Notes under the pieces: model-generated | The model's input: only the letters and a program-made list of their open reading frames with translations | Database searches by the model: none | What the model was told of the DNA's origin: nothing | Source: a virus | DNA length: 27,379 nt | Virus record (IMG/VR): IMGVR_UViG_3300030385_000917 | Span: 1 to 27,379 of that record | Reading direction: 5' to 3' (one strand) | Program-made: the position numbers and the translations under genes | Shown here: one piece after another, positions 3,001-26,072 of the stretch | Layout: the number at the start of each line of letters is the position of its first letter | Position numbering within the stretch: position 1 is the first letter of the stretch

Positions 3001-3393
3001 CACTATTTCCCGAAGTCTTTCACGATACTAAAGATTTGGGTGACAGTTTTTGGGGCGAGTTCTTCGGGCGATTGGAAGTTTGATGTCTGGACTGATGAGG
3101 GTGCTGCCGACCCAACAGGGCTAGACCGATACAGTTCAATCCTGTGGGGGTCATACCACCCAGATGGTACATTTACTGACGAATTGATTGATCTCTATGT
3201 ATCGGAATACGTGTCAGGTAGTCAATCTGCAATGACTGGATTTGCGGCTACTGTTGGCGATGACGACACTGGATCGCAGGATTATTTTGCACTGGATTCT
3301 GACAATTTTTTGGTGGTCAACGCTACAACCGCTGGCAACGCATTGACGGATTGTAAGATGTATATTCAGGGTTTCTGGACAGGCACTTCTTAA
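1..3393 (+). CDS. Tail fibre / receptor-binding protein, 5' end cut by window edge
   Basis: The reading frame is open from base 1, so the GTG at 31 is probably internal and the gene starts left of the window. About 1130 residues are visible. The protein is built from repeats of the form G-N-V-G-I-G-T-x2-P-x4-L-H-V, with copies near residues 115, 193, 405, 472, 543, 624 and 872. This is a familiar pattern in phage tail fibres. A region near residues 750-830 carries the widespread fibre motif GTPASGVLTNCTGLP. The last 150 residues, from about 980, are non-repetitive and aromatic-rich, and are the likely receptor-binding or trimerisation end. It lies upstream of a small fibre-linked gene and the lysis cassette. 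The fold is expected to be a trimeric beta-rich shaft. The receptor cannot be inferred. Fibre identity is secure; host specificity is unknown. Confidence 0.88.
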   Translation, partial: TVTGSGADNQVAVWSSSSAIEGTSSLVFDSTGLAVTGDLTVDTDTLYVNSSTNYVNMAGASQVRLTLGNEGTAGNNDSNWIRGNGTALGLNSAGGDIGFEVGGTAVMTIDSSGNVGIGGTPTAGKLHVFGSSVFDSGAANEVATFQSTDGNAHIQISDSLDNAFFGTSGNVAYMGMSNTTAAGANLVVDSAGNVGIGTADPDGTLHVHTGSAGTITPNANSDDLIVENSGAGGLSILAPDANNSNIVFGSPTDSSGALVRWNHDTAIFEIGSTISSGTGQVSIKAGNNAEAMRIDSSGDVKIEEKLGIGTTPASHPLEISTATNGVGISLVNSSTLSGISLVPTNSGWGTKTPLFDMNNVTTTTGTRLIVAAAESVITFNDINDNADFQFGTQATKKLVIKSDGNVGIGTAGPAERLHIEDLRTASAPALRITNDARSWNLASRGDIATDPFVIRDVTGGVNAFTIEGGTGNVGIGTAAPGDKLEVAISGEDYISVTSGGTNVTRMGDLHATNKIGCVEVFSGGVLGARLVGDTGDSYVTGQFGIGTAAPDAGYKLHVQDDAANANALIEAGAGYNLAALDFRGNGVTQGGVVGGTDGTSGYLAFSTNNAGSIAERVRFAANGNVGIGVTDPDQALEIDGRLHLSEEAAPSAPADADGGVLYAKVDGSGNARPYWIANGVAEVDLSASAGTSYTAGDGLDLSGTEFSTDLKANGGLVIESTELAIDLAASSFTNTLANASLANSAVTVGSTSISLGSTAATIAGLTLTAPALGTPASGVLTNCTGLPIAGIADGTDGELITWNSSGVAAAVAVGSDTHVLTSNGAGAAPTFQAASGGGGTPSGIAGAVQFSDGSAFDSDADKLFWDDTNKRLGIGTDIPSGALHIEGGDFLFNTISPADRNFTVATVGDANAIFVEGSTGHVGISTGSPRTELTVEGSITLKELGSARADTAAYGQIWCKSATRGTAAFFTDDIGTDIPLNTDVLTINMGGITGTGEKGYHYFPKSFTILKIWVTVFGASSSGDWKFDVWTDEGAADPTGLDRYSSILWGSYHPDGTFTDELIDLYVSEYVSGSQSAMTGFAATVGDDDTGSQDYFALDSDNFLVVNATTAGNALTDCKMYIQGFWTGTS

Positions 3394-3412
3394 ACAACAA
3401 CAACAACAACAA
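3393..3412 (+). repeat. (AAC)6 microsatellite leader between two genes
   Basis: Six perfect AAC triplets plus two As fill nearly all the space between the fibre stop codon and the next ATG at 3416. No Shine-Dalgarno sequence is present there. An unstructured CAA-type leader can support ribosome entry, so it may replace the usual site. As a short tandem repeat it could also vary in length by slippage. Confidence 0.85.
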
Positions 3413-3415
3413 TTT

Positions 3416-3745
3416 ATGCCAAACACATACAACTGGAGCCGACTAGAGGCTCTTCAAAAGGACGAGGGCGATCTCAGCAATGTGGTCGTGGATTTAGTCT
3501 GCGGTATGACCGGAACAGACGGAGAATACAGTGCGTATATTGATACGATGCACAAGCTCTCCCCGCCTGATCCGGATAACTTCATTCCGTTTGAAGACTT
3601 GACAGAGGAATGGGCAATTGAAATTGCCAATACGGTAGCTGAGGAAAGGGGCTTTCAGGCGTCTCTGGATTCGCAGATTGCTGCGGCGAAGATAAGGCCG
3701 ACCAGCAAGCCATTCGCGTGGCAAGCTCCTGCACCGAGCGAATAA
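3416..3745 (+). CDS. Small tail-fibre-associated protein (DUF7936-like)
   Basis: This 109-residue protein starts with a YNWS motif at residues 5-8, has a central segment with GTDGEYSAY, and then a PF-DLTEEWAI segment. It ends in a Pro-rich tail (FAWQAPAPSE). The arrangement resembles a small conserved phage family that I recall as DUF7936, usually found beside tail fibre genes in marine phages. That assignment is from memory. No catalytic motif, signal peptide or membrane segment is visible. The start is the only reasonable ATG, but it has no Shine-Dalgarno sequence and follows a CAA repeat. A fibre chaperone or accessory structural role would fit the position but is inference. Confidence 0.8.
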   Translation: MPNTYNWSRLEALQKDEGDLSNVVVDLVCGMTGTDGEYSAYIDTMHKLSPPDPDNFIPFEDLTEEWAIEIANTVAEERGFQASLDSQIAAAKIRPTSKPFAWQAPAPSE

Positions 3746-4413: not shown

Positions 4414-5721
4414 ATGGCAACATTAACAGGACAGACGGTAGCCTCGACTTACGATCTTCTGCTGAAGGTTGCTGCAACGGGGATAGACCCCAGCACTCCC
4501 CGCACCATTCAGGATGGCACGGCGAATAACTCCGCATTAAAGCTGGCTGGGGCATCGGTTCAGATCAAGCAATCAGATGACTCTTCCGCGACCCTTGAGG
4601 TGACGGGGGTATCCACGCTTACCGGGGCGGTTACTGCGACTGGCGGTGTGGTGGGAGATTTGACGGGGAATGCGGATACGGCGACAAAGGCTTACGTTAC
4701 TGACAACGAATCCACCAATGAAGAGAACCTGATTTCATTTGTAGCCGATGCAGCGACAGCCAGCGGGAATCACGGGCTGGAGATGGACGGCAACCTTACT
4801 TACAACCCATCCACGGGAACCATCACAGCCACGGCAGTTGCGAGCGCACTAACAGGAAATGTTGCTGGAAATGTTACTGGAAACGTAACTGGGAGTTCGG
4901 GAAGTTGTACGGGGAACTCCGCAACGGCCACAGCTCTTGCTGCTACTGGGAACATAGCGATGACGGGTGATGTGGCGTGGAACGTGGATTTCAGTGGGTC
5001 AGGTGTAACGGCTGCGGGGACTATACAGGCCAACGCAGTAGACCTGTCGATGTTGGAAGATGGCACTCAAGGAGATGTACTTTATTATGGCGCAAGCGGC
5101 GCACCAGCGAGATTGGCCGCTGGGACGGCTGGGCAAGTTCTTGAGAGTGGTGGTGCTGCGGCGAATCCGAGTTGGGCTGACAGAGTAAGGGGGATTGACA
5201 CTTTTGAGTCTGACGGAACATTTACTGTCCCGGCCACTGTCACGGCAGTCAAGGTGACGGTTGTTGGTGGCGGGGGCGGGGGGATGGAGGATTCTAATGC
5301 TGGAACTAAGATGGGAGGAGGTGCTGGTGGCGCAGCAATCAAGGCTATTACCGGACTCACTCCCGGTGCGGACATCACTGTTGTCGTGGGTGCGGGGGGT
5401 GCTGTCAATGTCGCAGGTGGCGATTCAAATTTCGGCGGCTATTGCTCTGCAACAGGTGGCGAGCAAGGAGGGAGCAGTGTGGCCTATGGTGGAGGCGGTG
5501 CGGGTGCTTCAGGGGACACTAACTTTACCGGAGAGTCGGGCTTAATGTCGAGCGCAGGAGGCTCAGGTGGAGGCTCAATATTCGGAGGCGGAGGGAGATG
5601 GCGAGTCTTAAGCTCTTATGGGGTAGAGGGAAACGCCACAACATACGGCGGCGGCGGTGCTGGCGGGCAAAGCACAGTGTACGGAGTCGGATTTGACGGA
5701 GTGGTTATCGTGGAATACTAG
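4414..5721 (+). CDS. Second tail fibre / adhesin with glycine-rich tip
   Basis: This protein has 435 residues. An AGAGGAAA site precedes the ATG. The N-terminal 80 residues contain a STPRTIQDGTANNSALKLA stretch typical of phage fibre shafts. Residues 140-200 carry short G-N-V-T/A repeats (LTGNVAGNVTGNVTG) and an SGSCTGNSATAT motif seen in many fibres. From about residue 265 a module begins with FESDGTFTVPATVTAVKVTVVG. It then becomes glycine-rich to the end, with runs such as GGGGGG and YGGGGAG. Glycine-rich ends of this kind are used as receptor-recognition tips, as in T-even gp38-type adhesins. The end VVIVEY is typical of this domain. It is probably a minor fibre or tip protein alongside the large fibre upstream. 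Confidence 0.85.
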   Translation: MATLTGQTVASTYDLLLKVAATGIDPSTPRTIQDGTANNSALKLAGASVQIKQSDDSSATLEVTGVSTLTGAVTATGGVVGDLTGNADTATKAYVTDNESTNEENLISFVADAATASGNHGLEMDGNLTYNPSTGTITATAVASALTGNVAGNVTGNVTGSSGSCTGNSATATALAATGNIAMTGDVAWNVDFSGSGVTAAGTIQANAVDLSMLEDGTQGDVLYYGASGAPARLAAGTAGQVLESGGAAANPSWADRVRGIDTFESDGTFTVPATVTAVKVTVVGGGGGGMEDSNAGTKMGGGAGGAAIKAITGLTPGADITVVVGAGGAVNVAGGDSNFGGYCSATGGEQGGSSVAYGGGGAGASGDTNFTGESGLMSSAGGSGGGSIFGGGGRWRVLSSYGVEGNATTYGGGGAGGQSTVYGVGFDGVVIVEY

Positions 5722-5730
5722 GAGTGAAAT

Positions 5731-6474
5731 ATGACATTAACTGAATTAGCAGACTTTGTTACCACGAAACTTTCCGACACCACCTCGGACTCGGTAGCGG
5801 TGTGCAAGGATTTTGTTAACCGCCGTTACCAGATGATATGGGACTCCGGCCTATGGACTGAGACAATGGGTGTGGCGAGCAAGGCGGTAGCGGCTGAGGA
5901 CACTGAGATCACGTTGGACGGTGTTCCAACCATTACATTTTACCAATCCTCATCCGCACCAACCACCTTCATAGATTTCCCCGTTGCCTTGAAGTTTACG
6001 AAGACAGGCAAGGATGACGGGTTGATGTTGCTCAATGATAGCTGGATGACGTTCTTCCAGATAGACCCGAATGTGTGGGAGAACATCTCCACTCGCAGGT
6101 CTACCCCGACAAACTTCATTAACCTGCCGAAGGACGCAAGCGGGTTCTGCCGAATCAAGCCTGTGCCTGTTCCGAAAGATGCCGGGTCAGTGTTCGTGTT
6201 GGGCAAACTGAAGTGGGTGGAACTGGGGGACTCGGACACGCCAGCCTTGAACGGGATAGACAATGCGTTGCTGGCGTTTGTAGAGGGAGATATGCTGGAG
6301 AGGTCGAGGCAGTACAGCAAGGCGCAGATCAAGTTTACTGAGGCGGCATCTCACATTCAGATAATGAGGGACATGGAGAAGGGTCAGAGACAGTCGATCA
6401 GCAGGATAATCCCCTACGTATATAGTCAGTACGACTTCAGGGCGACAACAGCAGACTTCGGGCCTAAGAGCTAA
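5731..6474 (+). CDS. Head-tail adaptor / tail tubular protein A-like (T7 gp11 position)
   Basis: This protein has 247 residues. A clean AGGAGTGAAAT precedes the ATG. The N-terminus is helical with CKDFVNRRYQMIWDSGLW, the pattern of podovirus adaptor proteins that dock on the portal and start the tail. A central beta-rich part (residues 60-170) is followed by a C-terminal helical segment rich in Arg/Lys/Gln (ERSRQYSKAQIKFTEAASHI). The next gene is the predicted nozzle, which matches the gp11-gp12 order of T7-like phages. The stop overlaps the next start (TAATG). The assignment uses family pattern and gene order; sequence identity to T7 gp11 itself would be low. Confidence 0.7.
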   Translation: MTLTELADFVTTKLSDTTSDSVAVCKDFVNRRYQMIWDSGLWTETMGVASKAVAAEDTEITLDGVPTITFYQSSSAPTTFIDFPVALKFTKTGKDDGLMLLNDSWMTFFQIDPNVWENISTRRSTPTNFINLPKDASGFCRIKPVPVPKDAGSVFVLGKLKWVELGDSDTPALNGIDNALLAFVEGDMLERSRQYSKAQIKFTEAASHIQIMRDMEKGQRQSISRIIPYVYSQYDFRATTADFGPKS

Positions 6475-17517: not shown

Positions 17518-17943
17518 ATGGACAAGAAAAGGACAGGCAGCGTTGCGGAGCTGGCCGTTGCAACTAAACTAGCAGAGTTAGGTTTCACGGTTAGCTGGCC
17601 TTTAATAGAGGACTCGTATGACCTGATCGCGGAGAAGGACGGGCATTCACGAAGGGTACAGGTCAAGTCCGCAGGACTTAACAAGGGGGGAAGCTATAGA
17701 TGCGCCACCGTCCACGGGAGCCCAGCCAGACAGAGCTACACTAAGAGAGACTGTGACGTGGTGGTCCTTCACGCTTCCTACTCTAAAGACTTCGACGATA
17801 TGATATTCGACGGGTTCTATATTATTCCCGTGGAGGATATAGCCGGACATCGCACTGCCGTGATCTTTCCTGCAGGGAAAGGGAGAGGGAACATCAAGGT
17901 ATGCAAATGGGAGAAGTACAAGGATGGCTGGGATAAAATATAA
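17518..17943 (+). CDS. PD-(D/E)XK endonuclease, I-Ssp6803I-like (PDDEXK_5 type)
   Basis: This 141-residue protein carries the motif chain of the group I intron-associated PD-(D/E)XK family. Residues GSVAELAVATKLAELGF give helix-borne E11. D35 is in SYDLI, and the catalytic strand is RRVQVKSA with Q48-V-K50 (Gln replaces the usual second acid, as in I-Ssp6803I and some resolvases). A later segment, DVVVLHASYSKDFDDM and FYIIPVEDI, matches the usual C-terminal half. It is expected to cut DNA in a metal-dependent way. It could be a free-standing homing endonuclease, a resolvase-like enzyme or a packaging/defence nuclease. There is no Shine-Dalgarno site; three hairpins lie immediately upstream. 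It lies at the junction of the late block and the opposite-strand replication block. Confidence 0.75.
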   Translation: MDKKRTGSVAELAVATKLAELGFTVSWPLIEDSYDLIAEKDGHSRRVQVKSAGLNKGGSYRCATVHGSPARQSYTKRDCDVVVLHASYSKDFDDMIFDGFYIIPVEDIAGHRTAVIFPAGKGRGNIKVCKWEKYKDGWDKI

Positions 17944-19394: not shown

Positions 19395-19443
19395 GTTAAC
19401 CCTCCCCGTCAGGCTGCAGTTTCCCGACAGGGAGGGCGTTAAC
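19395..19443 (-). promoter_or_regulatory. Long hairpin in the leader of the DnaA-like gene
   Basis: On the - strand, arms CCCTCCCTGTC and GACGGGGAGGG pair over about 11 bp around a 15-base loop, flanked by GTTAAC at both outer edges. There is no clear U-run, and a strong ribosome binding site follows within about 12 bases. It may be an attenuator, an mRNA-stabilising structure or a weak terminator between the 19469 gene and the DnaA-like gene. Confidence 0.55.
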
Positions 19444-19468
19444 TACTCAGGTATATAAAACAACCTGA

Positions 19469-19786
19469 CTAGAAAGGGTTCTCCTCCTCTGCACCTTCCT
19501 CGACAGGCGCGTCAATAGGATGCTGTAGCTGGAGGGAGACGAACGGGCCATATTCCCCGTCACGCTTCCATCCTGACAAATTGCATTTCAGTTTCCCTTC
19601 ATTGCTGCTGATGATACCCAGTAGCTCTTCGCTAAAAGCGAGGTGCAATACTCCACGGTAATCAGGTTCCTTGTCGCTCTTCTTGTCCGTGTTCCTGTTA
19701 AGGACGTGGGAGTATTTCTTTCCTGTCTTAGGGTTTGTTGCGTCTTTCCCTTCGGTGACGTCAACCCATCTTGTTCCTTCTGCCAT
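19469..19786 (-). CDS. DUF736-like protein with SSB-type acidic tail, candidate ssDNA-binding protein
   Basis: This protein has 105 residues. The core (38-90) contains DKEPDYRG, then a short helix, then GWKRDGEYGPFVSLQLQHP, which follows the pattern of DUF736 proteins (SDKAPDYR ... GWKK ... YLSVKLDDP). The last 13 residues are acidic and finish EEENPF at 100-105, strongly recalling the acidic tip ending in Pro-Phe by which bacterial SSB recruits partner proteins. It is a good candidate for the phage single-stranded DNA-binding protein, matching its place among nuclease, annealing and initiation genes. The start lacks a Shine-Dalgarno site and follows an 11-bp tandem repeat. SSB function is inference. 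Confidence 0.6.
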   Translation of the reverse strand: MAEGTRWVDVTEGKDATNPKTGKKYSHVLNRNTDKKSDKEPDYRGVLHLAFSEELLGIISSNEGKLKCNLSGWKRDGEYGPFVSLQLQHPIDAPVEEGAEEENPF

Positions 19787-19787
19787 A

Positions 19788-19809
19788 ATGTTTTATGTAT
19801 GTTTTATGT
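19788..19809 (-). repeat. Perfect 11-bp tandem repeat before the SSB-like gene
   Basis: Two adjacent copies of ATGTTTTATGT (read on the + strand) fill the space between the nuclease gene stop and the ATG at 19786. The second copy overlaps that stop codon. No Shine-Dalgarno site is present. The AT-rich repeat may contain a promoter -10 element (TACATA on the - strand, seven bases before the ATG), which would give a nearly leaderless mRNA, or may be an operator. Confidence 0.6.
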
Positions 19810-20385
19810 TTCTATGGTTAAATTGCTGATGACATCCTGAAGGAGGGCATCAGCTTGTTTCTTGTCTTTCATCCTCATGCTCTTAGCGAATTGCTTCTCA
19901 ATAGCATCGAGGTTTTTCCTACAGGCAATGTTAAATGCCCGTAAAATTCTGTCGGGATTCTTTACGTGGCACACCCGCTTGTGCTCACACCAGTTGCAGT
20001 AGTCGCATAGTGCTGGCTTCTTGTCAGGGGACTCGACTCTAGAGATCACGTCCTCCACCAGTTCCTCAGCCTGATCCCTGCTGATGGTCATGTTGCAGAC
20101 TGCCCTTGTTTTAGAATAGAGGAGATAGATATTGATGGTATCAAGGTCATCCCTCTGGCACAGGGCCGCTGCGTACACGCACATCTGCAGGACGTAATCC
20201 CTTTCCTGACCTGTCTTCAGGTCGAAGAGATTCCCCTTGTAGTATGCGTCTAGGTAGCCGTAGGTGACTGGCTTGCCACCCCTAAGGTATTCCACCTTAG
20301 TCTCTGTCTCTATATCTTCACCAGCACGTTCCGCCATTGACGTGACGTAACGCACTGCCCAGCTCACTCCTTCATCTATTTCCAT
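19804..20385 (-). CDS. RecB/Cas4-like PD-(D/E)XK nuclease, C-terminal (catalytic) part of a split gene
   Basis: This 193-residue product starts at an ATG with AAGGAGA five bases upstream; a longer frame to 20445 would overlap the neighbour by 52 bases and lacks a site. Motifs of the RecB/Cas4 nuclease fold are GYLDAYY with D46, FDLKTG with D55-x-K57, and QMCVYA with Q67 and Y71. A Cys cluster follows at C127, C130, C133 and C139 (ALCDYCNWCEHKRVC), as in the Fe-S or metal-binding end of these nucleases. The usual N-terminal part, with its own CP motif and GTxxH, is missing here but is found 760 bases upstream as a separate 59-residue ORF (21145-21324). The pair together would make one normal-length phage nuclease. 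Confidence 0.75.
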   Translation of the reverse strand: MEIDEGVSWAVRYVTSMAERAGEDIETETKVEYLRGGKPVTYGYLDAYYKGNLFDLKTGQERDYVLQMCVYAAALCQRDDLDTINIYLLYSKTRAVCNMTISRDQAEELVEDVISRVESPDKKPALCDYCNWCEHKRVCHVKNPDRILRAFNIACRKNLDAIEKQFAKSMRMKDKKQADALLQDVISNLTIET

Positions 20386-20393
20386 AAATCTCC

Positions 20394-20846
20394 TTAAAAT
20401 ATGTCTATCGGTTTCTTGAACTTTTCCACTGGTATCTTCAGGCACGGGTGCTGGTCAGCGGGGTCGTCCCTGTCTGTCCTGCCTCCGTACCGTACCTCGA
20501 AGCGTGTAATCATAGGGACTACCGCAATCATCCCTATGCCTCCCCCCGCGCGCACAGCGTACCAGCACGGTAGGCAAGTCGCATTACTGGTCATCAGCAT
20601 CTCCTCCCACTTGTAGACATCGCACATGATGTGCTTGTAGTTCGGTTTGAACGATCTCTTGTCCTTGATCTCAACGAAGGCTATCACCTTAGGGAAGCTG
20701 CCTTCTCCCTCGGTGACGGCGTAGTCCATGTGGTAGTTAATCGGCAGCTTTCTATAGGACAGCCCATCACGATTGACAGAGAGAATATACTGGATGATCT
20801 CCTTCTCGTTCTTCCTGTCCTCCTCGCTCTCGTAGGTTGGCCTCAA
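20394..20846 (-). CDS. Second PD-(D/E)XK-type nuclease (ExK)
   Basis: This protein has 150 residues. A TTG start overlaps the upstream stop codon (TTGA) and has AAGGAG about nine bases before it, so it is probably coupled to the upstream gene. Catalytic-type residues are visible: D41 in NYHMDYAVTEG and E59-I-K61 in VIAFVEIKDKRS, with the hydrophobic strand before the ExK expected of this fold. The rest contains a CLPCW motif near 93 and hydrophobic strands GIGMIAVVPMITRFEV. It is similar in style to small phage nucleases such as the VRR-NUC and Hjc types, but I cannot place it in one family. It lies between the two halves of the RecB/Cas4-like nuclease. Confidence 0.6.
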   Translation of the reverse strand: MRPTYESEEDRKNEKEIIQYILSVNRDGLSYRKLPINYHMDYAVTEGEGSFPKVIAFVEIKDKRSFKPNYKHIMCDVYKWEEMLMTSNATCLPCWYAVRAGGGIGMIAVVPMITRFEVRYGGRTDRDDPADQHPCLKIPVEKFKKPIDIF

Positions 20847-21163
20847 AACAGGTACTCCTTCCCCTTGTCGGACTTGAACTGCTTCTTGATGCCACCGTAG
20901 AACTGGTCATTGATGGCCTTCTGCCTAGCCCGTTCCGCAGCGTGCATCATGCCGTTACCGGACTTAGAGCACGGCACGCACGCCCACTGGTGGCCCAGAT
21001 TCTGCCAGACAGATGCCCACTGTGAGGCTATCGGGTCTTCATCGTCGTACTCTATCTGCAGGTTCTCACCGCATGATCCCAGAGGGGCAATCTTTCTCTC
21101 CCCGCCCACAGTCTCCCAGTGGAAAGGACCTTCGCATCTTTTATCTATTGTGACTTTCGCCAT
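20843..21163 (-). CDS. Hypothetical Cys-containing small protein
   Basis: This 106-residue protein starts at the ATG with AAGGAG eight bases upstream; the longer frame to 21250 has no such site. Four cysteines in the pattern RCEG (10), SCGEN and ACVPC suggest a zinc-binding fold. A helical, Lys/Arg/Gln-rich C-terminus (MHAAERARQKAIND) follows. The first 19 bases overlap the end of the nuclease N-terminal ORF. The stop overlaps the TTG start of the next gene. I do not recognise the family. By operon position a DNA-processing accessory role is likely but unproven. Confidence 0.65.
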   Translation of the reverse strand: MAKVTIDKRCEGPFHWETVGGERKIAPLGSCGENLQIEYDDEDPIASQWASVWQNLGHQWACVPCSKSGNGMMHAAERARQKAINDQFYGGIKKQFKSDKGKEYLF

Positions 21164-21324
21164 TCTTGTAGCTCCTTCTCGAATTGATCGTGTAGTAGTG
21201 TTCCCAGTTGTGCCGCTGGCCCAGCCTTTCCAGACTTGTAGCAAGGACACTTGTCGTATGCAGGAAACGATGACGGCGACAGGCTGTCATGGTGCTTCCT
21301 TGTTGCTGATGTTTCTTTTTTCAT
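21145..21324 (-). CDS. RecB/Cas4-like nuclease, N-terminal part of a split gene
   Basis: This 59-residue ORF is easily missed because of its length. Residues 15-29 read LSPSSFPAYDKCPCY and residues 37-45 read AAQLGTLLH. These are the N-terminal motif and the GTxxH helix of phage RecB/Cas4-like PD-(D/E)XK nucleases, in which a Cys near the start joins the C-terminal Cys cluster. The ORF stops at TAG, overlapping the next gene by 19 bases. The matching catalytic half is at 19804-20385, beyond two other genes. The ATG is followed by six As. The upstream site is weak (TTAGG). I infer one ancestral gene split by insertion of two genes or by rearrangement; the halves may assemble in trans. Confidence 0.65.
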   Translation of the reverse strand: MKKETSATRKHHDSLSPSSFPAYDKCPCYKSGKAGPAAQLGTLLHDQFEKELQEWRKSQ

Positions 21325-21328
21325 AAGC

Positions 21329-21460
21329 CTAAGTAGGGAGTGAGCAGGTCACGGCGTGGAGGCAGGAGCCCAGAAAGGAGAGGAACTCCAGTATGCTTTT
21401 CCTATGACAGAAACCACACACTCTAACAAACCTCTCGCTACTGCCCACTCCCCGAATCAC
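21329..21460 (-). CDS. Possible 43-residue protein, low confidence
   Basis: This short frame begins with a GTG that overlaps the stop of the ERF gene (TAGTG) and ends four bases before the start of the split-nuclease N-terminal ORF. Such tight spacing is what a coupled operon gene would show. The product has a CGFCH pair near residues 15-19 and a hydrophobic C-terminal half (ILEFLSFLGSCLHAV). No Shine-Dalgarno site and no family match are apparent, so it could simply be a 135-base spacer. Confidence 0.3.
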   Translation of the reverse strand: MIRGVGSSERFVRVCGFCHRKSILEFLSFLGSCLHAVTCSLPT

Positions 21461-22065
21461 TAGATGCCTAGGTCGTCCCCTTCAGTCCTGCTCATCACAG
21501 GACGCTTAGGGCTGGCAGGTTTAGCCTTCCCCCGCTTAGCTTTCTCCTTCTCCCCGATGATAGACTCACCGTCATCATCAGCATCAGCCTCAGCAGCCTT
21601 GTCCCCTGCCTTGACAGGGATGTTGAGCATTGCATTTTGCATACCCCTTCGGGCGTAGGTTTGTCCAGAGAGCTGTGCCTGTGGGTCATCAGGCCCCTTT
21701 GCTCCGGTCTTCACGATAGACTTGCCTTCAAGCCACACGCCTCCGACCATCAGTATACCCTTGACGATCTCAATGGTTGCGAGGGTTTCCTTCTCCACCG
21801 TTTCGACCCTGCCGTCAGGGTGGGTGGTGGTCTTAGTCGCCTTCAGCTTCTCGACGATTACGTCAGGCACTACTGAGAATGCTATTCCTGATTTCGCCTT
21901 AGGCTCTTTAGTCGCCTCGATGATCGAGTTCAGGTCAGCGTACTTCCCCCCGTAAAAAGGGTTCTCGTTCTTCTTGAGTGCTGGGTCCAGCATCGCCTGA
22001 AATTCAGCGAGTGCTGTGCCCAACTTCAGCCGACTGTCATCGGCTCCATTTTGTTCTTCCTTCAT
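21460..22065 (-). CDS. erf: ERF-family single-strand annealing protein
   Basis: This 201-residue protein starts at the ATG that overlaps the resolvase stop (ATGA), with GAGGAGG about ten bases upstream. Residues 12-70 match the ERF recombinase core: LGTALAEFQAMLDPALKKNENPF and YGGKYADLNSIIEATKEP, then KSGIAFSVVPD. A beta segment (TLATIEIVKGILMVGGVWLEG) and SGQTYARRGMQNAMLNIP complete the conserved region. The C-terminal 60 residues are acidic and then basic, probably a flexible interaction tail. ERF proteins anneal complementary single strands during phage recombination and genome circularisation. Neighbouring resolvase, nucleases and SSB-like gene fit the pathway. Confidence 0.85.
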   Translation of the reverse strand: MKEEQNGADDSRLKLGTALAEFQAMLDPALKKNENPFYGGKYADLNSIIEATKEPKAKSGIAFSVVPDVIVEKLKATKTTTHPDGRVETVEKETLATIEIVKGILMVGGVWLEGKSIVKTGAKGPDDPQAQLSGQTYARRGMQNAMLNIPVKAGDKAAEADADDDGESIIGEKEKAKRGKAKPASPKRPVMSRTEGDDLGI

Positions 22066-22400
22066 TCTGATTTTTCCTCCTCGGAGTCTTTCTTGATGAG
22101 AGCAAAGAATACCCACTCAGGCATCGTGACCAGCCATTGCCCACGGTTCTTCTTGTGGGCTACCACTGGCATACTCTCACCGCAATCGTCCTCCGATTGT
22201 TTTACTGCTTTTTCTATGTTCAATTTCTCTACACGTTTCACTTCAAAATGAAACGGCAGGTTACACACTACGTCAGGGGAGTCAGGACTGCCACTAAACT
22301 GCTGTCCCCTCCTTGCCTCATAGCCGTTAGCTATGAGATGATCCCTCCATTCACGCTCTCCACGAGCACCCTTCTGTCGGCTGTTAATCGCCTTTGTCAT
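22062..22400 (-). CDS. Hjc-like Holliday junction resolvase (PD-(D/E)XK)
   Basis: This protein has 112 residues. The motif order of archaeal/phage Hjc-type resolvases is present: KGARGEREWRDHLIANGY with E15, SGSPDSPDVV with D43, and FHFEVKRVE with E53-V-K55. The C-terminal strand and helix region ends in an acidic-basic tail (KKDSEEEKSE). It would cut four-way DNA junctions formed by recombination or replication. The start overlaps the upstream RHH gene by 17 bases, with GGGAG close to the ATG. The stop overlaps the ERF start, placing it in the same transcript as its likely partner. A nickase acting on other branched DNA is a possible alternative. Confidence 0.8.
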   Translation of the reverse strand: MTKAINSRQKGARGEREWRDHLIANGYEARRGQQFSGSPDSPDVVCNLPFHFEVKRVEKLNIEKAVKQSEDDCGESMPVVAHKKNRGQWLVTMPEWVFFALIKKDSEEEKSE

Positions 22401-22742: not shown

Positions 22743-22856
22743 ATGAACTATGAGATGATTAACTTACTGCTCATTGGTCTGTCTATCCTGCACACTTTTG
22801 CTGCGGTGATAACAGGCATAGCTGCAGTGGCGATTGTCGTGAAGCTGAGAAGCTAA
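22743..22856 (+). CDS. Lone + strand small membrane protein
   Basis: This 37-residue ORF has one continuous hydrophobic stretch (LLLIGLSILHTFAAVITG, then IAAVAIVV) and a basic end KLRS, a good single-span membrane protein. It is the only plausible + strand gene inside the - strand block. Its stop overlaps the stop of the convergent MazG-like gene by four bases. Upstream DNA (22634-22700) is AT-rich with TATAAA-like sequences that could hold a promoter. The ribosome site (AACAGGT) is weak. A role in lysis timing, exclusion or membrane targeting is possible; function is unknown. Confidence 0.45.
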   Translation: MNYEMINLLLIGLSILHTFAAVITGIAAVAIVVKLRS

Positions 22857-23176
22857 CGCGATGCAATATCCCGCCAGTGTCCGACCTCCTTCTTGAGCCG
22901 ATGGATTGTATCAAGCAAGTCCTGTCTCTCTTTCTCTGCTGAACAGAGATAGAACCACAGGTCGATTGCCTCGTTCTTTGCTTCTCCGATAAGGTCAGCC
23001 CTGTCATCAAGGTTACCCCCGTGTTGTTTCTGCCCCTCGTTATATTTTAACGGGGCACGCTGATGCCAGTCCTGAACTGCGTCATCCCGAATCTGATCGG
23101 AACTCCTGCCAACCCACTCCTCTGCCATCTTTCTCTCCTCCGGTTCACCGGATGTTATGTTATCATCCTTTGCCAT
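22853..23176 (-). CDS. MazG-like nucleotide pyrophosphohydrolase-type protein
   Basis: This protein has 107 residues. The central motif KYNEGQKQHGG (44-54), followed by LIGEAKNEAIDLWFYL with E65, E69 and D72, resembles the helical metal-binding core of phage MazG/dUTPase-superfamily proteins. The C-terminus is charged helix (AEKERQDLLDTIHRLKKEV). Related phage enzymes hydrolyse nucleoside triphosphates, for example ppGpp or dNTPs, to adjust host metabolism. The complete E-x2-E plus E-x2-D set of active enzymes is not clear, so catalysis is uncertain. AGGAG lies about ten bases before the ATG. The start nearly meets the stop of the upstream gene. Confidence 0.6.
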   Translation of the reverse strand: MAKDDNITSGEPEERKMAEEWVGRSSDQIRDDAVQDWHQRAPLKYNEGQKQHGGNLDDRADLIGEAKNEAIDLWFYLCSAEKERQDLLDTIHRLKKEVGHWRDIASR

Positions 23177-25225: not shown

Positions 25226-25467
25226 TCTTCTTCCTCCTTCCTTAGCGACCATGCTGTCTCAGACTCGAACTCCTCTCGGCCTTTGTAGCCCGTGTCAAGC
25301 CCCGCCATTGCTATATCCTTGACGGATTCCTTAGGGAACTTGCACGCTCCGCATATGCTGCCGATGGCGGTCATAGTTGAAGCTACAAACTCCACACCCG
25401 CTCCCCCTTCATCTCGGAAGGTTGCTGCGAGTTCTATTACTTTCTCCATCAGTTCATCATTACTCAT
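25222..25467 (-). CDS. Small hypothetical protein
   Basis: This protein has 81 residues; the start overlaps the stop of the YkgJ-like gene. GAAGGAAGAAG precedes the ATG. Helical N-terminus (ELMEKVIELAATFRDEG), then a Cys-containing segment SICGACKFP, then an acidic end. The C-terminus REEFESETAWSLRKEEEE repeats a peptide found in the DUF932-like protein, and the underlying DNA is also similar, suggesting a partial duplication or a shared binding segment. No function is known. Confidence 0.6.
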   Translation of the reverse strand: MSNDELMEKVIELAATFRDEGGAGVEFVASTMTAIGSICGACKFPKESVKDIAMAGLDTGYKGREEFESETAWSLRKEEEE

Positions 25468-26072
25468 TCTTCTTCCTTCCTTATTTTGTCGATAGCCTTC
25501 TCCACTTTTTTGCGGAGTGCCATCGTGGTTCTCTTTCTCTTGTGTCCTTCCTGATCCAGCCCGAGCCAGATTGCTGAATACAATCCTTCAGCCACGTTGA
25601 GCTTCTCAACGTCCGTATGGACTGTGTCCCACATCTTAGCCAGTCTCGCCGCAGCGAATGAGCTCAAGCCATTAGCCCGTTGCTCCTCCATGCTGCAGCT
25701 AAACATCCTGCACCCGAAAGGTGCGTCCTCGTGTATGCCACACAACCTGCTCTTCTGGTTGAAGTGGACGCACGAGCCGTTCTTGCGTGAGGCAGGGACG
25801 AGCGTGGGTATCCTGACTATTTGATCTGAGTCAGGTACACGCACATAGGTCCCGTCCGATGCCAGTAGGGTATCCTTAGCCCACGGCATAACCTCCTCGA
25901 TGGTGACCTCTGCCTCCTCTCCTTCTGGGAGGAAGTCGGTGACCACCATGTAGGGGATTATATCCTCAGGCAACAGGAAGCTAGGCATCACGGCGCAATG
26001 CACCTGACACACCTTGCACCCGCACACGTTACGCTCAAGCACATCGGGATTTATATCGAACTCATCTTCCAT
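25464..26072 (-). CDS. YkgJ-like Cys-cluster (zinc or iron chelating) protein
   Basis: This protein has 202 residues. AAAGGGAAACCA precedes the ATG. Two Cys clusters are visible: C17, C19, C22 and C26 in VCGCKVCQVHC, followed by SFLLPEDI, and C101, C111, C121 and C126 in GSCVHF, RLCGIHEDAPFGCRMFSC. This is the layout of the YkgJ/CxxCxxCC family, small proteins thought to bind a metal or Fe-S centre through eight Cys. A central insertion (45-95) and a basic helical C-terminus (KRKRTTMALRKKVEKAIDKI) are additions to the core. The role in a phage is unknown. Confidence 0.7.
   Translation of the reverse strand: MEDEFDINPDVLERNVCGCKVCQVHCAVMPSFLLPEDIIPYMVVTDFLPEGEEAEVTIEEVMPWAKDTLLASDGTYVRVPDSDQIVRIPTLVPASRKNGSCVHFNQKSRLCGIHEDAPFGCRMFSCSMEEQRANGLSSFAAARLAKMWDTVHTDVEKLNVAEGLYSAIWLGLDQEGHKRKRTTMALRKKVEKAIDKIRKEEE

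Follow-up and report, generated by a model that had tools for sequence, protein, structure and literature searches.

A Cas4/RecB-type nuclease split between two genes of a phage recombination operon and probably reassembled in trans

Can a phage nuclease still function as one enzyme when its gene is broken into two pieces, with other genes lodged between them? This question is raised by a 27,379-nucleotide stretch of viral DNA (IMG/VR record IMGVR_UViG_3300030385_000917; hereafter, the window), in which the motifs of a Cas4/RecB-type nuclease are distributed between two open reading frames (ORFs).

Two ORFs homologous to a single nuclease

The shorter of the two ORFs (21145-21324, minus strand; 59 aa), here denoted the N-half, contains the motifs HH, SPSSFP, KCPCY and GTLLH, along with the first cysteine of the Fe-S type (C26) and the motif I histidine (H45, in GTLLH). 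The longer ORF (19804-20385, minus strand; 193 aa), the C-half, carries the motifs GYLD, FDLK, QMCVY and CDYCNWCEHKRVC. It starts with the ATG at 20385, with AAGGAG upstream; a longer form starting with the GTG at 20445 could be considered but would overlap the upstream gene. Both ORFs and their motifs, as described in a first-pass annotation of the locus, are confirmed by the ORF list. In a PHROGs search, the halves joined in silico scored 54.2 bits with phrog_69 (exonuclease), whereas the N-part by itself reached 15 bits and the C-part 39.6; the joined protein likewise outscored the separate halves with phrog_1706 and phrog_3953. The 350-aa protein encoded by an intact relative, L047, was compared with the record of 32,961 bases in which the window is contained, and matched at two places only, in order: residues 21-67 matched 21166-21303 (minus strand), within the N-half (E = 3.3e-8, 48% identity), and residues 74-211 matched 19966-20382 (minus strand), within the C-half (E = 5.4e-34, 44% identity). 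The N-half could be aligned with 10 relatives. A search of the PDB by sequence detected no relatives, only a meaningless match to ClpS.

Given the score of the joined protein above those of the halves, the match of the L047 protein at just two places and the presence of the split in 36 other contigs, the relationship is more than a chance similarity. Sequence comparison thus confirms that a phage exonuclease of the Cas4/RecB type is divided here, with the N-terminal part encoded by 21145-21324 and the catalytic core by 19804-20385. The assignment of both ORFs to a nuclease family that elsewhere consists of single chains, made in the first-pass annotation, holds: the region encoded by the 59-residue ORF has its homolog at the N-terminus of the intact proteins and is normally present in the relatives of the 193-residue ORF.

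Predicted fold and conserved residues

The AlphaFold2 model of the intact L047 protein (pLDDT 79.6) has the RecB/Cas4 fold. Residues 26-213 of this model match Cas4, AdnA, MGME1, RecE and lambda exonuclease, with Z scores of 9-12 for Cas4, AdnA, MGME1 and lambda exonuclease; among these matches are AdnA (Z = 12.1), Cas4 7mi5 (Z = 12.0) and Cas4 SSO0001 (Z = 10.8, rmsd 2.8 Å over 148 residues). The split point maps to the loop 68-76 of the L047 protein, located between helices, after the motif I helix. The C-half of the window modeled alone (pLDDT 82.8) yielded a confident Cas4/MGME1-type core, with weaker matches to MGME1 (Z = 8.5) and SSO0001 (Z = 7.8 at 4.6 Å).

Six residues of motifs II and III and the QxxxY motif (G43, D46, D55, K57, Q67 and Y71) are invariant in 27 sequences. 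The C-halves contain an invariant D, DxK and QxxxY along with four invariant cysteines, and in the split N-halves the motif I histidine and the first cysteine are invariant, as is the motif PSxxPA across clades. The pattern of one N-terminal and three C-terminal cysteines is present and invariant, spread over two chains, and a fourth C-terminal cysteine is conserved as well (C-x2-C-x2-C-x5-C). This pattern suggests a putative Fe-S cluster, with the Cys loop predicted at low confidence in both models.

Split and intact relatives

Relatives were gathered by scans with the C-part, with C-part profiles and with the N-part, and the split and intact forms were counted per contig with two profile HMMs. 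In the resulting set, 37 contigs, window included and a few of them near-identical to one another, encode the N- and C-parts as separate ORFs (the count includes L050, whose N-half is cut by the contig start) and 7 contain the intact gene; in 37 of the 37 split contigs, the N-part is upstream of the C-part on one strand. This number of contigs rules out chance or a contig artefact. Where an N-part was found without a C-part, the contig ends within about 1 kb, except for L095, which contains a distant single long ORF with a core missed by the profile. Single-chain forms are encoded in L046 and L047, and in more distant Verrucomicrobia-associated loci along with the Akkermansia phages Chambord and Chantilly. 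No instance of the split nuclease was detected in the annotated phage records searched. In the C-half encoded by the window, the C-terminal extension of roughly 80 residues seen in intact relatives is missing and, for this reason, the function could have shifted in the window. In L047, a 51-aa Cys-rich ORF (4624-4779) directly precedes the intact exonuclease gene (4782-5834); the near-identical beginnings of the two products, MGIMTSDGF and MGLTTSDTF, suggest that the beginning of the gene was duplicated in tandem.

In L061, the halves overlap with nothing between them, and the same organization, with overlapping ORFs, is found in L082, L087 and L089. The gap in L006, which appears as a clean linker insertion when compared with L047, is only 79 nt; a 33-aa mini-ORF with a single membrane span (L006:3909-4010) fills this gap and overlaps both halves. 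In L059, two small genes, neither of them a nuclease, are located between the halves, whereas L001, L043 and L044 contain a Cys-rich ORF and one further gene in this position. The two halves share one frame in the window and L006, and are in different frames in L001 and L007. In the phylogenetic tree of the N- and C-parts, the window groups with L001, L043 and L044, followed by L061, which is the sister of the window clade (support 97/86), and then by L006 together with the intact L047 and L046. The M clade (L007, L048, L052-L055, L059, L062 and others) consists entirely of split forms with 0.5-1.9 kb between the halves, and L082, L087 and L089 form a separate split group.

Because splits without inserted genes exist (L061 and L082/L087/L089), the split does not require inserted genes, and the proposal of the first-pass annotation that an insertion, or the inserted nuclease, broke the gene finds no support in these loci or in L006 and L059, which are split without a nuclease in the gap. 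We read the sequence comparison as pointing to fission first and cargo later in the lineage of the window. The number of fissions is a separate issue. It is possible, although less likely than not, that the split is ancestral for the whole clade and that the intact L046 and L047 genes are secondary fusions, as opposed to several independent splits. The distance from the motif I histidine to the ATG that opens the following gene is 9.7-11.3 codons in the window clade as well as in L061, L006 and the L082 group, as if inherited, and when the split is mapped on the tree as a label, the minimum is four state changes, with gains and losses indistinguishable. Conversely, the more distant relatives are single chains, and in a smaller tree a single clade of all split sequences was rejected (p-AU 0.0026), whereas a clade of the window plus the M clade was not (p = 0.126); re-fusion is compatible with both results.

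Operon context and the genes between the halves

The split nuclease belongs to a predicted operon with the gene order RHH, RusA-like, ERF, nuclease halves, small SSB-like gene and replication genes. The RusA-like/PDDEXK_15 gene (22062-22400, minus strand; phrog_244, E = 3.6e-22) encodes a protein of the Holliday junction resolvase type and is followed by the gene for an ERF single-strand annealing protein (21460-22116, minus strand; PF04404, E = 4.2e-13; phrog_2324, E = 1.1e-17), which is located upstream of the N-half and retains this position in split and intact relatives alike. Directly downstream of the C-half is a small gene (19469-19786, minus strand) for a possibly SSB-like protein with an acidic tail ending in EEENPF and a weak match to phrog_18154 (E = 0.016); relatives have a gene in the same place, after the C-half or after the intact gene. 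The association with cas1 and cas2 that marks Cas4 proper is not seen, the neighbors being the ERF, RusA-like, RHH and replication genes, and no cas genes were detected among the window proteins scanned, which represent part of the window ORFs. Elsewhere in the window, a PDDEXK_5 family gene (17518-17943, plus strand; PF11645, E = 1.1e-14) is located on the opposite strand, close to where the operon ends, and L007 and L008 contain similar ORFs on that same side. Another protein (25464-26072, minus strand) shows a weak match to a CxxCxxCC metal-chelating domain, just below the cut-off (PF03692, E = 3.6e-4).

As the first-pass annotation stated, a Cys-containing protein and a nuclease are encoded between the halves. 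The first cargo gene (20843-21163, minus strand) encodes a small Cys-rich protein of 106 aa with the best start at 21163; the ORF as listed (20843-21250) begins at a GTG further upstream. From the best start, the gene overlaps the last codons of the N-half by 19 nt, out of frame. The protein resembles zinc ribbons by its CxxC pairs only, with no family match; it is kept in L001, L043 and L044, a 69-aa ORF at the equivalent site in the other clade is possibly its relative, and no counterpart was found in annotated phages. The second cargo gene (20394-20846, minus strand; 150 aa) starts with TTG, overlapping the preceding stop codon, and encodes a putative endonuclease of the PDDEXK_14 family (PF24579, E = 1.2e-21). 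No close relatives of this protein were found in viral contigs, and the PF24579 proteins from Pseudomonas phages share only 27-28% identity with it. Of the two things that the first-pass annotation suggested looking for in related phages, the unsplit gene was found (L046 and L047), whereas PDDEXK_14 between the nuclease halves was seen in the window only.

The cargo was compared across 26 loci with a gap over 100 nt. In the window clade, it consists of the Cys-rich ORF followed by a nuclease or nuclease-like gene. In the M clade, the usual cargo is a small gene that looks MazG-like by eye and has no family match, one nuclease-like gene and an ORF of 60-74 aa, with the Cys-rich ORF present only sometimes. 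A window gene upstream of the RHH gene (22853-23176, minus strand) resembles this small M-clade gene, and L054 has an extra slot gene (3205-3606) with a match to the C-terminal domain of the RNA polymerase alpha subunit that is below the cut-off (PF03118, E = 3.9e-4). The nuclease-like genes of the slot fall into several groups without detectable mutual similarity; the window gene is the only one in PDDEXK_14, and the others, which match no named Pfam family, were denoted nuclease-like by E/DxK motifs seen by eye. The slot nuclease swaps family between close relatives while the flanks stay put: the nuclease of the window is replaced by a different family in its nearest relatives L001, L043 and L044, and L048:4083-4561 and L052:2529-3149 are unrelated nuclease-like genes with flanks 91-92% identical on each side. 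Given the change of family in the nearest relatives, the suggestion of the first-pass annotation that the inserted nuclease might be a partner of the halves is unlikely to apply in the sense of an obligate partner, although some slot nuclease may play such a role.

These exchanges bring to mind a selfish, homing-type nuclease that broke the exonuclease gene by inserting into it and has since been kept at this site, in parallel with mobE in nrdA of phage Aeh1. Nearly every cargo-bearing locus contains one small putative nuclease, from several unrelated families, the exchange between L048 and L052 is gene-exact, and such replacement is described for free-standing homing endonucleases of the T4 type, going by the title of a work cited in PMC2988022. 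Nevertheless, we consider this origin of the split unlikely. The split occurs without a nuclease between the halves in L061, L082, L087, L089, L006 and L059; no slot nuclease matched a homing endonuclease family in Pfam; and in the intact L046 and L047 the operon has a nuclease-like gene at another place, ahead of the RHH-RusA-ERF block, which points to a movable operon member. No direct repeats flank the insert in the window, and two imperfect inverted pairs were judged unremarkable.

Selection on both halves and a proposed two-chain enzyme

Both nuclease halves are under purifying selection. The dN/dS values, calculated by the Nei-Gojobori method between relatives, with the most diverged pairs saturated, range from 0.095 to 0.24 among N-halves and from 0.056 to 0.19 among C-halves; for the Cys-rich ORF, the range is 0.07-0.26 where computable. 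These values bear on the possibility that the C-half alone is the functional enzyme, the N-half ORF being a decaying remnant. The D, DxK and QxxxY motifs all reside in the C-half, and the core folds confidently by itself; however, the N-half shows the low dN/dS given above, its histidine, cysteine and PSxxPA motif are invariant across clades, and it is present in every contig that reaches far enough, so that decay appears quite improbable. Still less credible is a single full-length product, whether obtained through recoding (frameshift, hop or readthrough) or through splicing of an intron or intein that spans the gap. The common frame in the window and L006 and the overlapping ORFs of L061 and the L082 group, which would permit frameshifting, could be taken to point to such a product. 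However, the frames differ in L001 and L007, the gaps reach about 1.9 kb and contain conserved genes, the overlaps show no common slippery heptamer by eye, and no intron or other Rfam family was matched in 19400-21700; the frame relations and gap sizes led us to reject recoding into one chain.

Taken together, we consider it likely that the two ORFs encode an obligate two-gene nuclease of the Cas4/RecB type that is reassembled in trans and feeds the ERF annealase, and that the cargo entered the junction later. Under this scenario, two polypeptides would be produced from one operon by coupled translation and would fold together. The N-half would supply the motif I histidine and one putative Fe-S cysteine, and the C-half the Asp, Asp-x-Lys, Gln-x-x-x-Tyr and the remaining cysteines; because the residues of the metal site and the cysteines are divided between the halves, neither half alone is expected to be a normal enzyme. 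Assembly in trans would be the simplest account of selection on both halves, considering that the residues corresponding to those of Cas4 sit on different chains. The possibility of action in trans raised in the first-pass annotation thus appears likely from the shared family, the unsplit relatives and the selection on both halves. The assembled enzyme would resect DNA ends for the neighboring ERF annealase, an exonuclease-partner role suggested by the gene order and neighborhood. The two genes that separate the halves, for the Cys-rich protein and the nuclease, would be later cargo at the junction, the nuclease position being swapped among unrelated families. A further, tentative extension of this scenario is that the metal site and the Fe-S cluster are each formed by two chains, that breaks occurred repeatedly at one loop, that the junction serves as the entry site for exchangeable nuclease genes, and that the need for two chains may control the activity.

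Relationship to known systems and implications

The predicted fold of residues 26-213 of the intact relative is like that of the Cas4/RecB-type Fe-S nucleases (SSO0001, Pcal_0546, AdnA and the AddB nuclease domains), which also share with the proteins described here the D, D/ExK and QxxxY motifs, the histidine in the N-part, and the arrangement of the cysteines, with a single one in the N-part and another three, at C-x2-C-x5-C spacing, in the C-part. In the Cas4 protein Pcal_0546, one N-terminal and three C-terminal cysteines bind the cluster, and a histidine of the N-part is a likely, proposed metal ligand (PMC4176176). These nucleases are one chain or one domain, whereas the phage version is encoded by two genes, is located in an ERF recombination operon without CRISPR genes in view and has a conserved fourth C-terminal cysteine. 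Given that no CRISPR context was seen, we do not claim membership in Cas4 proper. The PHROG 69 phage exonucleases, including those of the Akkermansia phages Chambord and Chantilly, are homologous across both halves and have a similar neighborhood of recombination genes, but differ in consisting of one chain of 387 aa, encoded beside a Sak4-like annealase, with Asp in place of the motif I histidine and a longer C-terminus.

The known phage genes in pieces, which in T4-type phages were broken by homing endonucleases or lie around them, include nrdA/mobE of Aeh1, gene 60/mobA of T4 and gene 43A/43B of phage 25, with reassembly of the split products shown for nrdA of Aeh1 and gene 43 of phage 25, and with gene 43 known to be split without the nuclease in a relative (PMC2988022). 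As in these cases, a gene of DNA metabolism is present as two ORFs with a nuclease gene in the gap; it is contiguous in L046, L047 and the Akkermansia phages, and both pieces are conserved, as indicated by dN/dS and their co-retention. The closest parallels are the split nrdA of Aeh1 and gene 43 of phage 25. The differences are that here many contigs share the split, that insert-free fissions exist, that the nuclease-like genes in the gap come from several families, and that the enzyme encoded in pieces is a nuclease too, one with a putative composite active site. No report of a split Cas4-like phage nuclease was found in the open-licence literature.

The retention of both pieces intact in dozens of related uncultured phages suggests a working enzyme formed by reassembly. 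Automated gene calling probably presents the pieces as small proteins without any relationship, considering that the split was not seen in the annotated phage records searched. The series from the intact L047 through the overlapping L061 to the cargo-parted window provides a test bed for the breakage of phage genes and the filling of the resulting gaps. If the two-chain reading is correct, the locus would represent a break point in the Cas4/RecB fold that has been tested in nature and kept in many phages, with two chains completing a single active site and, probably, a single Fe-S cluster.
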